The notes below the pieces were generated by a model that saw only the letters and a program-made list of their open reading frames with translations, did no database searches and was not told the origin of the DNA. From positions 1 to 21,860 of IMG/VR virus record IMGVR_UViG_3300036398_003051: 21,860 nt of DNA; one strand, 5' to 3'. The stretch's first letter is position 1. Each line of letters starts with the position of its first letter. Below are positions 13,274 through 21,599 of this stretch, one piece after another. Both the position numbers and the translations under genes were made by a program. Origin of the DNA: a virus.

Positions 13274-14264
13274 AAATGCACATATCCTCAACTAATTGTT
13301 TAAAAGAAGTCTTAGGTTCCCAACCTAGTTTTTCCCTTGCCTTGGAGGCATCACCTAATAAAGTCTCTACTTCAGCAGGTCTAAAATATTTAGGATTGAC
13401 TTTAACGATTGTTCTACCAGTGTTTTTATCTACACCAATTTCTTCAAGACCTTCACCTTCCCAGACAATATTCATTCCAAAATAAGGTGCTGCTTCTTCA
13501 ACAAAATCACGCACCGAATACTGCTCACCAGTAGCGATTACATAATCATCTGGTTCATCCTGCTGAAGCATCAACCACATTGCTTCAGCAAAATCTTTAG
13601 CGTGTCCCCAGTCACGCTTTGCATTCAAATTACCCAGTTCTAGAATCTGCTGCTCACCCGTAGAAATTCTTGAGAGAGCACGGGTAATCTTACGAGTAAC
13701 AAAGGTCTCACCACGGCGAGGAGACTCATGATTGAAGAGGATGCCTGTACAAGCATACATTCCATAGGACTCACGATAGTTCTTTGTAATCCAATAACCA
13801 TAGAGTTTTGCTACACCATAAGGAGAGCGGGGATAAAAAGGAGTAGTTTCGCGTTGAGGAATTTCTTGAACAAGACCGTAAAGTTCGCTGGTAGATGCTT
13901 GGTAAATGCAAACACGATCTTCCATACCCAAGAGGCGCACCGCCTCAAGAACACGAAGAGTTCCCACAGCATCCACATCAGCAGTGTATTCAGGCATCTC
14001 AAAGGATACTTTGACGTGACTCTGAGCGCCAAGATTATAAATTTCATCGGGTTGGACTTTTTGTATAACTCTTACTATATTAGTAGAGTCTGTTAAATCT
14101 CCGTAATGTAACTTAATATTTTGATACAAATGATCAATACGTTGTGTATTAATTTGAGAAGCACGGCGAATAATACCATGAACTTCATAACCTTTTTCTA
14201 AGAGAAGTTCAGCAAGATAAGATCCATCTTGTCCAGTGATTCCAGTAATTAGTGCTTTTTTCAT
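13263..14264 (-). CDS. gmd: GDP-mannose 4,6-dehydratase
   Basis: The 333-residue protein has the NADP-binding motif GITGQDG (residues 8-14), [11 protein letters not shown], the catalytic STSE (124-127) and Y149/K153 in [10 protein letters not shown]. It also has [16 protein letters not shown], a hallmark of Gmd. It makes GDP-4-keto-6-deoxy-D-mannose, the first committed step to GDP-L-fucose, GDP-rhamnose or GDP-perosamine. Since fcl follows directly, fucose is the product. It is a little shorter than E. coli Gmd (373). The start at 14264 overlaps the upstream stop as ATGA. Base composition appears higher in G+C than that of the flanking glycosyltransferases, a hint of separate origin. Confidence 0.97.
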
Positions 14265-15085
14265 GCTTCGCAATTTGTAAAATCTATTTGACCATTCCTA
14301 GTTGCCCAGATTGGATATTCTCTACCATAGGTATTCCAAATCTTTGCTTGCTGTTGCCCGACTGGAACTCCAGAAGTTCCAGCAGCATTCCAAATTGTTT
14401 CGTAAGTATCATCCTCATGAAATGTGAAATCATGAGTCTCTGCTTTTTTCTTCAGTAATAAAGACCAGATAGATTGATCATGCCTATTCTCTCTGAAGAT
14501 ATCGTCATTTGGAAGGATAGAAGGACTATCATCTAAATATTTTCCTTCACCATCAACACAAATATCTATCCATCTTTGAACTAACTCTCTAATCATAGAT
14601 GTATTTTTCAAAAAGAAGATACCGGAAATAACTTGACGAGTCATCAAGTATTCATCACTATCTCCCATAATATAGCGGTAGGTGTCCATTTTAGTCCATT
14701 GAATTTCTGGAAGATCTAAAGTAAAGAAAACTCCTTCAGTTTCCAAACATTCTTCGTAGTATTGTTTGAGTTTCTCTAGACCATTCTTATTCAATTCACA
14801 ACCAGAATCCACATAAAGAAGCACATCATTCTCAGGAATACTCTCCAAAGCTTTGAGAATGAAATATGGTTTACATGCATAATACCCATAATATCTCATG
14901 GGCATTCCTATGCGAGGACTCATCATAGGTTTTGCATATTGTTCCCAGAATAGATTATCCTCCAAATCAGATTCTCCAAACTCCAGAATAGAATTAAACA
15001 CTCCGAAGTTTTCCGCTTGTTTTCTGATTCTATTCTTACCTAAAGAAAAGTTATTATCTCCAAAGTAAGTTAAATGCAATTTCAT
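14261..15085 (-). CDS. GT-A-like glycosyltransferase of unassigned family
   Basis: The 274-residue protein starts [10 protein letters not shown] and has a hydrophobic strand ending in LLYVDSGCE (residues 89-97). That is a DxD-like site as in GT32/GT8-like enzymes. Near the C-terminal third is an [13 protein letters not shown] segment resembling the 'HDQ..l' acceptor-side motif of GT-A capsule enzymes. No family can be fixed. The ATG at 15085 is used; an in-frame TTG at 15109 would fall in the -10 box of the promoter module just upstream. It is the first gene after that module and overlaps gmd by four bases, so this promoter should drive fucose synthesis. Confidence 0.68.
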
Positions 15086-15108: not shown

Positions 15109-15142
15109 ATTATAGCAAAAAAGGAGAGTTTATGCAACTCTC
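15109..15142 (-). promoter_or_regulatory. Hairpin/promoter module B (-35 in the loop, TATAAT)
   Basis: On the minus strand a 7-bp stem GAGAGTT/AACTCTC (15142-15136 and 15130-15124) encloses the loop GCATA and is followed by a T6 tract (15122-15117), as in a rho-independent terminator. The same DNA holds TTGCAT (15137-15132), exactly 17 bases from TATAAT (15114-15109). It should end transcription from the upstream gene, whose TGA stop overlaps the stem, and restart it into the gmd-fcl operon. Geometry is identical to modules at 18293-18327 and 21557-21591. Confidence 0.75.
15117..15142 (-). terminator. Rho-independent terminator of the upstream glycosyltransferase operon
   Basis: The hairpin of module B (7-bp stem, 5-base loop) is followed by one C and then six T residues on the minus strand. 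Its first bases are part of the TGA stop of the gene at 15141-15845. The stem is only moderately stable, so partial read-through is likely. Confidence 0.65.
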
Positions 15143-15845
15143 AAATAATAAATGATTTAAGAGAATCAATACTCTCTTTATAGTTAGAGTAAGGTCTTGG
15201 ACAATGTGCATCAATATAATTAATATTTTCAACACACCAGTAATTCCTATCCAATCTACCAATTGTCTGTCCGGGTTTATCTAAACCAGGAGAAAGAGGA
15301 GTATTAAATCCTCTATTGTGATAAATCTTTTTAAAGTTGGATAAATTAATTTTTTCAGAGATGTATAACTCATCAGTATTCCATCCAAAATTTAAAGAAT
15401 TTAATCTAATTACAAATTCTTCCCAAGTTTCATTTTCATCATCCAAAGCAATCGATGCAAAAGTCTTCCCATAAGAAGAAAAATAACACATTGGATATCT
15501 AGTTCCTACAATGGGAAATTTATCATTTATATAAGCATCTGATGAATATATTGAGATCTCATCATAGTCGTTAGCAAGATTAGATAAAAAATATTCTTTA
15601 TTTAATGGAAGTATGTCTATATCAGTTATTAAAATTACTCTATCAGGAAATAATTTTGTAACATACATTCTCAGTATTTGAGATTGAAGTGAAGATCTAA
15701 CATTTGGAATTTCTGGAAATTCTTCACTACCAACCAGTCCATAAAAAGTATCAAATCCACAGGTTTGCCAAAATTCAGTTACGATTGGAGCAAACTGATA
15801 GTAATCTGGGTTATTGTCGCTAGAGAAAATTACTAATGGTTTCAC
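15141..15845 (-). CDS. GT-A-like glycosyltransferase candidate
   Basis: The 234-residue protein has a DxD motif in ILITDIDILPL (residues 71-81) after a LRMYVTKLFP helix, and later a GWNTDELYISE segment. The overall plan resembles small GT-A enzymes acting in polysaccharide clusters. Family, donor and acceptor are not identifiable. The start is GTG at 15845, with AGGAG about ten bases upstream inside the end of the exostosin-like gene. The stop runs into terminator module B. It is the last gene of the three-gene unit that begins with the carbamoyltransferase. Confidence 0.62.
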   Translation of the reverse strand: MKPLVIFSSDNNPDYYQFAPIVTEFWQTCGFDTFYGLVGSEEFPEIPNVRSSLQSQILRMYVTKLFPDRVILITDIDILPLNKEYFLSNLANDYDEISIYSSDAYINDKFPIVGTRYPMCYFSSYGKTFASIALDDENETWEEFVIRLNSLNFGWNTDELYISEKINLSNFKKIYHNRGFNTPLSPGLDKPGQTIGRLDRNYWCVENINYIDAHCPRPYSNYKESIDSLKSFII

Positions 15846-15847
15846 TA

Positions 15848-16678
15848 TTAAATACTCCTTTTCATTAATTTAATCCACCAACTAACTTTTAGTTTTTCCA
15901 TATTAAAATCTTTATTAGATATTTCGACTAATTTATTCTTTAAAAATTCCTCTGTTATTTCTTCAAAAGAATCTACAATAACAACAGGAAGATCCACTAA
16001 ACATTTAGTATAATGAATATGTTTTTCTACAATTGGTATTATTCCACAATATAAAGATTCCCATAATCTAATTGTATCAACACCATTACCTCTAGGGCAA
16101 AGAATAAATTTGTGAGAATTTAGTTTTTTTCTATATTCATCCAAACTTAAGTTTGGATGATCTACAGTACACCAATTATTTGTAGTGAAGTAATTATAAA
16201 TCCATTCTCTACTTGATGGATGAGTAGAAATGCGATGATTGATGTATAAAAGTTTATCTTTATTACTTTCTTCAGTAGTTTTTTTTATATGTGATAATGT
16301 TAAACTATGAAATTTATAATAATCACATGCTACTCCTAGTGGGATAGGAATCAAGTCTTCATGATCATATTCTACATTTTGAGCATACCACTTAAAAATA
16401 CATTCTGGTTTACTTCTAAAAAAGTTTTCATCAACTCCAGCATCACTTTCATGACTAATTAGTATTAATTTTTTATCACAATTTTGACTTCTAAGAACTT
16501 CAAATAACTTTGGTACAAATTCATATTTTGAAAAAATTACATCATTATCATTTACAGTTAAATTTGTGTTTATTACTTGCGTAACTTCTCCTTGATTTGG
16601 AATTTCAGGATACACATTTCTAGCAAAAACAAAATCAGATTGTGATAAAAAATTTAAATGACTTAGAATATCGTCCAT
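15848..16678 (-). CDS. Exostosin-like (GT47-type) glycosyltransferase
   Basis: The 276-residue protein contains the exostosin GT-B signature FILCPRGNGVDTIRLWESLY (residues 191-210) followed by CGIIPIV (211-217). This part binds the nucleotide sugar in the C-terminal Rossmann domain. An earlier PIPLG segment (111-115) and LLYINHR (143-149) fit the same fold. In animals and plants the family adds GlcA, GlcNAc, Gal or Xyl; phage and bacterial members are uncharacterised. It lies six bases after the carbamoyltransferase gene and two bases before the next GTG start. Confidence 0.8.
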   Translation of the reverse strand: MDDILSHLNFLSQSDFVFARNVYPEIPNQGEVTQVINTNLTVNDNDVIFSKYEFVPKLFEVLRSQNCDKKLILISHESDAGVDENFFRSKPECIFKWYAQNVEYDHEDLIPIPLGVACDYYKFHSLTLSHIKKTTEESNKDKLLYINHRISTHPSSREWIYNYFTTNNWCTVDHPNLSLDEYRKKLNSHKFILCPRGNGVDTIRLWESLYCGIIPIVEKHIHYTKCLVDLPVVIVDSFEEITEEFLKNKLVEISNKDFNMEKLKVSWWIKLMKRSI

Positions 16679-16684
16679 AGAATT

Positions 16685-18268
16685 TTATTTTGTCACTAAT
16701 AAATTTTCAACCACTACAAAATCCAATTCTGTATTATCTAGAACATACAAAGCATCTTCGATTGTTGTTAAAATTGGTCTACCTTTAATATTAAAAGAAG
16801 TATTCAAAATTACAGCAGTTTTTTCACTTTTTTTCATAAAAGAAAGTAAGTCGTAAAAAAGTTTATGTTGTTTTGAATTAACTGTTTGCAATCTAGCAGT
16901 GCCGTCGTTGTGAGTAATAGAAGGTAACTTATCTTTATATTCATCTTTAACTATAGGAGCATAACTCATATATTCTGAAGGAAAGGCATTATCAAAATAG
17001 TCATGCATATCTTCTTCTCTACACACTGGAGCAAAAGGTCTAAACCATTCTCTAAATTTAACCTTAGCATTAAGAACATCTTTCATATCCCTAAAAGAAG
17101 GATCACAAATAATACTTCTATTTCCTAAAGCTCTTGGGCCAACCTCGGAGTATCCTTGTATAATACCACCTATTTTACCATTACTTATTAAATTAAATAT
17201 TTTTTCAGTAGTAACCTCTTCAGTATTATAATTACCCCTTTCCAAATGAAAACTAAGATTTTTACGATCTAAGATATCAAATCCACTGTAAACCAAAGGA
17301 TCAATATGTGTTTTAGTTTTAACCAAATATTGCCCTAGTGATTGACCACAATCATTAGGATTTGGTGGAACATAAAGATCAAAACCATTTTGATTTAAAA
17401 CTTCTTTTAACCTTTGATTAAAAATTACATTTAATGCACATCCACCAGTCAATACTATATTTTTTTTATTATTTTCAAAAAAGTTTAGAATAAAATCCAT
17501 CAATATGTTCTCGAAAACATATTGAGAAGTTGCAGCTAAATTGTAACTATTTTGACCAGATAGTGAATTGAGAGATAGATTTAACCCAATATCATTACCT
17601 AATCTTGACAAATCTCTGTGATAATAGAATTGGTGCATTGGTTCAATCCACTTTTCTATGACTTCACCATAAGCACATATTCCCATTACTTTACCAGCAT
17701 AAGAAAGAAATACACCTAGATCAGAACTATCTTTTCCAGGACTAATTTCACTCATAGGAACTCCAATAAGTGAATATGCGTTTCCAAAATCTAAATCTGA
17801 CTTATAAATTTCGATAATTTCATTTTCAACTCCAGTATATACTTTAGTTGTGGTGTGCATACCAAAATCACTTCCACCACCATCAACGGTAAATATCAAA
17901 GCATCTTTAAATGGAGATTGATAATATGCACCATAAGCATGAGATATATGATGACCATCAAAACTTTCCAAACAAGAATTTGGAAAGTACTCAGAAATAA
18001 GTTGTATATCATTTTGATTCAATACTGAAGAATATACAACTGTCTCTGGTGTATTTTTGATTTGTTCTTTTATATGACTAAGAAAATTTCTTCTTATAGT
18101 TTCATTGGTTCCGAGAGACCAGGAATCAAATTCACTACTATACATTGCATATCTAATATTACAAAACCTTTCTAATTCAAAAACTCTTAGATCTCCATTT
18201 TTATCTACAAAAGTAGCTGAAGCATCATGAGATCCATATATGCTTAATATCTTATCGTCTAAAGTCAT
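16685..18268 (-). CDS. O-carbamoyltransferase of the NodU/CmcH/TobZ family
   Basis: This 527-residue protein spans both family domains. The N-terminal kinase-like YrdC/Kae1-type domain has SIYGSHDASA (residues 9-18), HHISHAYGAYY (106-116), TVDGGGSDFG (127-136) and LTGGCALN (273-280). The C-terminal part has GYSEVGPRALGNRS (372-385), REWFRPFAP (406-414) and ILNTSFN. These enzymes make carbamoyl-adenylate from carbamoyl phosphate and ATP and pass the carbamoyl group to a hydroxyl of a sugar or antibiotic. Length is slightly below the usual 540-610 but no motif is missing. It is the first gene after promoter module A; the ATG lies about 18 bases past the expected transcript start with no strong ribosome site. 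Confidence 0.92.
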   Translation of the reverse strand: MTLDDKILSIYGSHDASATFVDKNGDLRVFELERFCNIRYAMYSSEFDSWSLGTNETIRRNFLSHIKEQIKNTPETVVYSSVLNQNDIQLISEYFPNSCLESFDGHHISHAYGAYYQSPFKDALIFTVDGGGSDFGMHTTTKVYTGVENEIIEIYKSDLDFGNAYSLIGVPMSEISPGKDSSDLGVFLSYAGKVMGICAYGEVIEKWIEPMHQFYYHRDLSRLGNDIGLNLSLNSLSGQNSYNLAATSQYVFENILMDFILNFFENNKKNIVLTGGCALNVIFNQRLKEVLNQNGFDLYVPPNPNDCGQSLGQYLVKTKTHIDPLVYSGFDILDRKNLSFHLERGNYNTEEVTTEKIFNLISNGKIGGIIQGYSEVGPRALGNRSIICDPSFRDMKDVLNAKVKFREWFRPFAPVCREEDMHDYFDNAFPSEYMSYAPIVKDEYKDKLPSITHNDGTARLQTVNSKQHKLFYDLLSFMKKSEKTAVILNTSFNIKGRPILTTIEDALYVLDNTELDFVVVENLLVTK

Positions 18269-18292
18269 TGTTATAATACTTTAATACTTATA

Positions 18293-18327
18293 ATTATACT
18301 AAAAAAGGCGGGTTTATGCAACCCACC
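18293..18327 (-). promoter_or_regulatory. Hairpin/promoter module A (-35 in the loop, TATAAT)
   Basis: On the minus strand an 8-bp stem GGTGGGTT/AACCCGCC (18327-18320 and 18314-18307, one G-T pair) encloses the loop GCATA and is followed by T6 (18306-18301). TTGCAT (18321-18316) is exactly 17 bases from TATAAT (18298-18293). The module is placed to end transcription from the right part of the window and to start the carbamoyltransferase and glycosyltransferase operon. Confidence 0.8.
18301..18327 (-). terminator. Rho-independent terminator at the border of the accessory gene region
   Basis: The G+C-rich 8-bp stem with a 5-base loop followed directly by six T residues on the minus strand is the strongest terminator-like structure of the left half. 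It separates the small-gene region from the glycan cluster. It is embedded in promoter module A. Confidence 0.75.
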
Positions 18328-18330
18328 TTT

Positions 18331-18428
18331 GGTAATTCAGGCTCGCCACCAATTTTTTAACTGGAAATTGGAAACCAGGCGGGGTAACCCCATCCGCACC
18401 ACCAATCCTTTGAAGAGAGATTGGAAAC
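18331..18428. repeat. Imperfect tandem direct repeat, two units of about 46 bp
   Basis: Two related units, 18331-18375 and 18383-18428, share GGTAA at the left, CCACCAAT in the middle and ATTGGAAAC at the right on the plus strand; their starts are 52 bases apart. Inside each unit CCAAT and ATTGG can pair, so each could form a hairpin. They fill the gene-free stretch (18331-18461) between the small membrane protein gene and module A. Function is unknown; it may be a regulatory RNA structure or decayed coding DNA. Confidence 0.5.
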
Positions 18429-18461
18429 TCAATGGGTCTTTTGACTCCACCAGTATAAGTT

Positions 18462-20264: not shown

Positions 20265-20322
20265 GTTTGTGTTGATACAAAAATATAGATTAAGATAATC
20301 TAAAATTTGTAACATTTGTAAA

Positions 20323-20409
20323 CGGAAGGTGCCGGAGTCGAACCGGCAAGGGCTTTAACACCTCAACTGTTTTCAAGACAGGTTCCGTCGCCAATCGGAT
20401 TGACCTTCC
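20323..20409 (-). tRNA. tRNA-Ser (anticodon UGA)
   Basis: The acceptor GGAAGGT/ACCTTCC has discriminator G. The anticodon loop CTTGAAA gives TGA, the variable arm is long as in class II tRNAs, and the T arm is GCCGG/CCGGC with TTCGACT. The first pair of the anticodon stem (C-T) is a mismatch. CCA is not encoded. It reads UCA and related serine codons. Confidence 0.94.
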
Positions 20410-20418
20410 AAAAAGTCC

Positions 20419-20682: not shown

Positions 20683-21117
20683 TCATTCAGTAAAAGATCT
20701 TAACATCCAAATAAACTTTCCATGAGACTCATTTAAATCATCAACAAGATTTGTAGTACCTCTAGATTTTTGTACTTCTGCTTCTTCGGCAACCTGACCT
20801 AGAAGAGATACAATTTGTTGATTACATTTAATCAAATCATTAACCATACCCATTGCATCTAAAGAACTATTTGCTTCTTCAACTTGAGAAACTTCAGTAA
20901 TTCTTGTAAGAGTGCTAACTGGTTTAATCTTCAAATACCTCATATGTTCGGTGAGGCGGTCAATTTCTTCAAACATTGTTTCATATTGTTCACCAAAAAC
21001 TTTATGAAACTGATAAAATTCGGAACCTACCACATTCCAGTGATAAACCCAAGTTTTTTGAAAGAGAACAAAAAGACTTGCCTGAGTATCAGAGAGTAAC
21101 TTATATAGTTTTTCCAT
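20683..21117 (-). CDS. Dps/ferritin-like protein
   Basis: The 144-residue protein is a four-helix Dps-type ferritin. It has VYHWNVVGSEFYQFHKVFGE (residues 24-43) with H26 and H38, IDRLTEH (52-58) with D53 and E57, and a C-terminal LVDDLNESHGKFIWMLRSF. Spacing H-12-H-15-D-4-E equals that of the E. coli Dps intersubunit ferroxidase site. The usual acidic ligand four residues after the second His is Gly42 (followed by Glu43), so iron oxidation may be altered. Dps proteins protect DNA from iron and peroxide damage. There is no lysine-rich N-terminal tail, so DNA binding is doubtful. An exact late promoter box lies 18 bases before the ATG. Confidence 0.88.
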   Translation of the reverse strand: MEKLYKLLSDTQASLFVLFQKTWVYHWNVVGSEFYQFHKVFGEQYETMFEEIDRLTEHMRYLKIKPVSTLTRITEVSQVEEANSSLDAMGMVNDLIKCNQQIVSLLGQVAEEAEVQKSRGTTNLVDDLNESHGKFIWMLRSFTE

Positions 21118-21387: not shown

Positions 21388-21535
21388 TCTTAAAATATTC
21401 CAGTTCTATCCAACGAAGAAGTGTATTATAAGCATATATAGATGCTTCTGTACAGTTGTCTTTTTTGAGTCGTTGAATGTAATACTCAAGTGCCTCGATG
21501 ACCATTTCACGGTCTTTTTGGGAAATAAGAGACAT
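21377..21535 (-). CDS. Hypothetical helical protein, 52 residues
   Basis: The start at 21535 is chosen because a near-perfect Shine-Dalgarno (AGGAGG) stands five bases before it and promoter module C lies just upstream. A longer frame to 21652 would run back through the promoter and the end of pstS. The peptide (MSLISQKDREMVIEALEYYI at the start) is predicted to be mostly two helices with many charged residues. No family is recognised. It is the first gene of a two-gene unit ending at the palindrome before tRNA-Val. Confidence 0.72.
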   Translation of the reverse strand: MSLISQKDREMVIEALEYYIQRLKKDNCTEASIYAYNTLLRWIELEYFKNEN

Positions 21536-21556: not shown

Positions 21557-21591
21557 ATTATAAGGCAAAAAAGGGGTTTCGTCAACCCCCC
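21557..21591 (-). promoter_or_regulatory. Hairpin/promoter module C (-35 in the loop, TATAAT)
   Basis: On the minus strand GGGGTT/AACCCC encloses the loop GACGA and is followed by T6 (21572-21567). The near-consensus TTGACG (21585-21580) is exactly 17 bases from TATAAT (21562-21557). It begins nine bases after the pstS stop and reads into the 52-residue gene. Of the three modules its -35 box is closest to consensus. Confidence 0.8.
21567..21591 (-). terminator. Rho-independent terminator of pstS
   Basis: A G+C-rich hairpin (GGGGTT/AACCCC, possibly lengthened by two further G residues) with a 5-base loop and six T residues follows the pstS stop codon on the minus strand. It is embedded in promoter module C. 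Confidence 0.75.
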
Positions 21592-21599
21592 TATGTATA

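Follow-up and report, generated by a model that had tools for sequence, protein, structure and literature searches.

The promoter-early stem-loop (PeSL) cassettes of T4-type phages were reportedly described by Arbiol in 2010 and by Comeau in 2014. They are composites of a terminator and a sigma-70-like early promoter, they occur in several copies at gene boundaries, and they have been linked to module exchange. RB49 is the phage that we take to be the type case. Few PeSLs have been found in the marine phage S-PM2 (PMC4503421). A second described element that bears on the locus examined here is the wcaG RNA, a cis-regulatory riboswitch candidate placed in the 5′ UTRs of exopolysaccharide genes or high-light genes (PMC2864571; repeated in PMC9964418).

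The DNA analysed in this study (hereafter the window) is the 21,860-nucleotide virus record IMGVR_UViG_3300036398_003051. Its closest named relative is the Synechococcus phage S-SRM01 (Kyanoviridae), which is mostly collinear with the window. Three minus-strand hairpins within these 21.9 kb, designated hybrids A, B and C, each carry a TTGNNN -35 box, a T-tract spacer and a TATAAT. A sequence-only reading had proposed three terminator-promoter junctions, and all of them are indeed present on the minus strand with the TTGNNN-17-TATAAT arrangement. The relevant features are as follows.

21557-21592, minus strand: hybrid C (hairpin 21570-21592; -35 TTGACG 21580-21585; -10 TATAAT 21557-21562), preceding a small open reading frame that starts near 21535
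20683-21117, minus strand: Ferritin/Dps-like protein, which many relatives likewise encode between hybrids C and A
20322-20410, minus strand: tRNA-Ser (TGA), which narrowly passes the Rfam selenocysteine tRNA model as well and shares 84-98% identity with tRNA-Ser stretches from Streptomyces phages
18335-18432, minus strand: wcaG RNA (RF01761), full-length, 95.6 bits against a gathering score of 42, E 2e-17
18293-18330, minus strand: hybrid A (hairpin 18304-18330; -35 TTGCAT 18316-18321; -10 TATAAT 18293-18298), with the T tract in the spacer and the carbamoyltransferase gene directly downstream
15143-18292, minus strand: exchangeable module between A and B, absent from S-SRM01 at this place
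16685-18268, minus strand: carbamoyltransferase, a module gene (Nol-like, PHROG 1601), within a sugar-nucleotide/glycosyltransferase cluster
15848-16678, minus strand: exostosin-like protein of 276 aa, a module gene
15141-15845, minus strand: gene for a protein of 234 aa, a module gene
15109-15142, minus strand: hybrid B (hairpin 15124-15142; -35 TTGCAT 15132-15137; -10 TATAAT 15109-15114), preceding the 273-aa gene at 14261-15082

In each of the three hybrids, exactly 17 bp lie between TTGNNN and TATAAT, the TT of the -35 box lies in the two stem-closing pairs and its remaining bases reside in the loop, and the flanking genes are co-directional. Folding gives AAAGGTGGGTT(GCATA)AACCCGCCTTTTTTAGTATAAT for hairpin A (11 pairs, -16.7 kcal/mol), GAGAGTT(GCATA)AACTCTCCTTTTTTGCTATAAT for hairpin B (7 pairs, -8.7 kcal/mol) and AGGGGGGTT(GACGA)AACCCCTTTTTTGCCTTATAAT for hairpin C (9 pairs, -12.0 kcal/mol), and in A and C the T tract is partly paired with the first bases of the 5′ arm. 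The five-base loop size that had been proposed is therefore correct, but the proposed stems of 6-8 bp must be revised to 7 to 11 pairs, and the loop sequence is kept only between A and B (GCATA), with C carrying GACGA. At the junction occupied by hybrid C, relatives carry a hybrid with a varied stem.

Such elements might simply reflect AT-rich terminators that happen to meet a TATAAT. AT-rich DNA commonly contains both TATAAT and T tracts, and a plain promoter scan of the window finds 100 matches where 101 are expected, which is the chance level. However, when a hairpin, a T tract, TATAAT and the correct spacing are all required, the window yields 3 elements and dinucleotide shuffles yield 0/1000. 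A looser consensus (up to three mismatches) likewise finds 3 in the window against a shuffle mean of 0.50, with 3 of 100 shuffles reaching this number. We also assembled 80 viral loci on the basis of similarity to a small protein of the window, such that the motif itself had no part in the choice; because many of these loci are related, locus counts overstate independence (there are 26 distinct wcaG-hybrid sequences). Together with the window, the loci comprise 1.03 Mb and contain 105 distinct terminator-like hairpins, of which 39 have a TATAAT starting at position +19 from the loop centre, with no other offset accounting for more than 4. The same offset peak is evident among the 272 terminators of eight complete cyanophage genomes, where 24 promoter matches fall at +18 to +22, compared with 0 to 7 in other five-base bins and 0 at +18 to +22 in a reversed-sequence control. 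Strict hybrids number 1 to 7 per complete cyanophage genome. Furthermore, a scan of the viral collection recovered the 17-bp version of the pattern in at least 120 DNA stretches and a 20-bp version in none.

Covariation was evaluated with 35 distinct copies that carry a five-base loop. In this set, 99.3% of cells are paired, two-sided changes occur at six of the eight stem pairs, and 0 of 500 shuffles match the score, whereas shifting the partner by one column reduces pairing to ~67%. The two innermost pairs, which are the TT of the -35 box, are invariant. Therefore, both the stem pairing and the promoter hexamers are conserved while the stem sequence drifts, which bears out the earlier proposal that selection acts on structure: stems vary, and the -35 box, T tract and -10 box are fixed. 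Enrichment over shuffled sequence, a check named beforehand, is likewise evident in the window shuffles, the offset histograms and the spacing-variant scan. Taken with the covariation, these histograms (for both loci and genomes), the 1000 shuffles and the comparison of 17-bp and 20-bp spacings lead us to reject chance in AT-rich DNA, whose probability as an explanation is practically negligible.

The hybrids share with PeSLs the combination of a terminator and a sigma-70-like promoter at gene boundaries where modules are exchanged. Each comprises a stem-loop of the intrinsic-terminator type followed by a U tract, and a TTGNNN-17-TATAAT match to a sigma-70-like promoter whose early activity is predicted; three copies occupy gene boundaries of variable regions within 21.9 kb. 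Synteny with S-SRM01 indirectly places the window in a T4-type phage; among the genes of the 21.9-kb record, none was identified as a T4 core gene. The resemblance to PeSLs suggested by the sequence-only reading is thus well supported by recurrence at gene boundaries, by stem covariation and by gene modules joined at the element. Its further idea of a link through melting of the DNA hairpin gains no support in the form given. Nor is the design that of coliphage PeSLs. RB49 and T4 keep the promoter as a separate entity located wholly after the terminator; counted from the loop centre, TATAAT is at ~+50 or ~+65, and the -35 box lies beyond the T tract (promoter peaks in RB49 are at +48 to +52 and +63 to +67, versus +18 to +22 in cyanophages). 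In contrast, the cyanophage hybrids place the -35 box in the loop and TATAAT at +19 to +22 from the loop centre, and thus depart from the RB49 order of a terminator followed by a complete promoter. Because the likely working is PeSL-like and the promoter is placed differently than in RB49 and T4, we consider the cyanophage element to be a nested, PeSL-like variant.

Nesting is also observed in KVP40, a T4-like Vibrio phage, in which TTGAC(TACG)GTCAA or TTGC(TTCG)GCAA stems are followed 17-18 bp on by TATTAT. These elements differ from those of cyanophages by their TACG/TTCG tetraloops, by a -35 box that is mostly in the stem, and by the TATTAT -10 box. Nested terminator-promoters of this kind, with the -35 box in the stem and mostly with TACG/TTCG tetraloops, are present at KVP40 positions 39859, 139745, 85853, 100188 and 121371, and a similar ATCGAAACGA-like leader follows them. 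Nesting in KVP40 may have been described before; our literature search for overlapping terminators and promoters yielded no relevant report.

Having the new promoter embedded in its stop hairpin, the 40-base element appears to end one gene block and start the next. Its fixed geometry, covariation and recurrence, and the exchange of downstream genes at this site (see below), are direct observations. Termination, early initiation and recombination within the element are what we infer from the sequences. We consider it very probable that the element marks the boundary between transcription units by fitting an intrinsic terminator and a sigma-70 early promoter of host type into a single stretch of 40 bp, and that modules are exchanged there by homologous recombination.

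Cyanobacteria are not known to carry Rho and depend on intrinsic termination. The hairpin and T tract would end the upstream transcript, such that polymerase exiting the preceding unit would let go when the RNA 3′ end lies between the -35 and -10 boxes of the next promoter. The TATAAT, positioned after a T-filled 17-bp spacer, would then direct the next unit to start just downstream. Bound initiating polymerase and arriving elongating polymerase would be mutually exclusive. A gene block between two elements would thereby gain its own start and stop, and each element would insulate its neighbours so that inserted modules leave expression undisturbed. Moreover, the short, near-identical copies at several junctions could serve as joints for module gain, loss and swap by homologous recombination within the T4-like cyanophage group.

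The comparison with S-SRM01 illustrates such an exchange. S-SRM01 has one element where the window has two (A and B), and this element has the 273-aa gene downstream, as after B, and a wcaG RNA upstream, as before A. Since the single copy combines the left flank of B with the right flank of A, the window has an extra module of three genes and 3.2 kb between its two copies. The 34 bases of B (GAGAG...TATAAT) are identical to those of the S-SRM01 element. Other loci exhibit related arrangements: in L138 and L153 a B-type element directly follows wcaG, with a leader and gene nearly as in the window, and in L080, L414 and L146 two elements enclose modules of one or two genes. The gene that comes first behind the wcaG-linked element varies from locus to locus among ~10 families that lack detectable similarity to each other, and these include (by names read from the sequences) GDP-mannose dehydratase, cytidylyltransferase, fucosyltransferase, nucleotidyltransferase, methyltransferase and acetyltransferase. 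Modules are thus gained, lost and swapped at the element, and the crossover itself would lie inside it.

When pairs of loci with different downstream genes are compared, identity is 1.00 through TATAAT and falls to about 0.3-0.5 from the next base. Stem class tracks the upstream linker (11/1 versus 0/11, Fisher p 1e-5), and no association between stem class and downstream gene was found (p 0.67). This pattern fits a joint located at or just beyond the element's 3′ half, but an equally sharp identity edge after TATAAT could arise if selection preserved the promoter bases alone. Indeed, the overlap of terminator and promoter might be a matter of genome economy only, with the element kept by selection on transcription rather than as a recombination joint, and with downstream genes swapped by illegitimate recombination, mobile endonucleases or homology of neighbouring genes. 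The end of identity at the last functional promoter base is consistent with this explanation, as is locus L384, which lacks hybrid B and has the carbamoyltransferase and 234-aa genes joined directly to the 273-aa gene. The carbamoyltransferase gene of L384 also lies downstream of a wcaG RNA and of a TATAAT-bearing nested hairpin whose -35 box is poor. The L384 arrangement implies that other routes of rearrangement exist and that two hybrids are not used in every exchange.

The presence of the pattern in unrelated contigs also bears on this question. The same nested 30-mer occurs in a Pelagibacterales contig (L391, ~1372-1401) and a Treponema contig (L392, ~2080-2109), where the element is the sole DNA in common with the window. 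These copies look convergent on sequence grounds, which favours selection for compactness, and we know of no such module shuffling in Pelagibacterales or Treponema. A search of the surroundings of the Treponema copy for riboswitch families gave none above threshold. An origin of the element in host chromosomes was also considered and rejected, as the genome collection contains only three matches to the 30-base pattern and none supports it. The third match, a contig binned as Crocinitomicaceae (L390), carries cyanophage DNA that shares ~75% identity with the window and includes wcaG, and its assignment is likely a binning error. Against an explanation by economy only, modules are flanked by two copies of the element in several phages, the difference between the window and S-SRM01 at this place is the stretch between two copies, and stem type moves with the upstream side only. 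On balance, we regard economy without a recombination joint as possible but rather unlikely, and favour exchange at the element.

The proximity of the wcaG RNA to hybrid A is not peculiar to the window. The 3′ end of this RNA lies 4 bases before hairpin A, and the gap is about 5-20 bases in most copies found. A profile search of the loci and genomes recovered 72 near-complete wcaG copies. A TTG-N20-TANNNT pattern follows 62 of them within 110 bases, and another 5 are followed by a form of the hairpin with TTTACA; because the copies are mostly syntenic, this arrangement is largely that of one lineage, plus DSL-LC03 and S-CREM1. A few of the 62 lack the hairpin hybrid, one being Syn9, where a plain TTGACA-17-TATAAT promoter is located 51 bases past wcaG. 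In the published view, wcaG RNAs occupy the 5′ UTR of the gene that they control, whereas a terminator and a new promoter intervene here. Since wcaG ends just before the terminator-promoter in most copies, the riboswitch candidate appears cut off from its supposed target gene, although transcripts that read through could still carry it in an extended leader of the downstream gene.

One way to reconcile these facts is that hairpin A is the expression platform of wcaG, with a ligand deciding on read-through towards the sugar genes while the nested promoter provides basal early transcription. The short distance of about 5-20 bases from wcaG to the hairpin in most copies is compatible with such a role, as is the status of wcaG as a cis-regulatory riboswitch candidate (PMC2864571). 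In S-SRM01, we noted a possible-looking pairing of the wcaG central hairpin with the 5′ arm of the terminator (CUCUCCC with GGGAGAG), but this candidate was rejected. Identical wcaG cores are accompanied by unrelated stems (GGAGAG, GGTGGG, AGGGAG), and this speaks against conservation of an antiterminator pairing. Moreover, the promoter is downstream of the wcaG RNA, and hybrids B and C occur without wcaG. An expression platform of this type therefore seems improbable. Without conserved pairing between core and terminator, wcaG either ends the upstream transcript or gates read-through in another way. We tentatively suggest, with considerable doubt, that cyanophage wcaG and the nested terminator-promoter form one unit unlike an ordinary 5′ UTR riboswitch, in which wcaG would finish the upstream transcript, whether by a structured 3′ end or by forming a small RNA, or else gate read-through into whatever sugar module lies downstream.

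If this suggestion is true, one conserved wcaG sensor-plus-socket would serve interchangeable surface-sugar genes. The accepted placement of wcaG is in any case questioned, as a terminator plus a new promoter lies between most copies examined here and the gene downstream. More generally, PeSL-type shuffling would be extended to freshwater cyanophages and to sugar-modification genes, and a compact viral genome may hold self-insulated, exchangeable modules by means of a 40-bp joint that supplies stop, start and homology.
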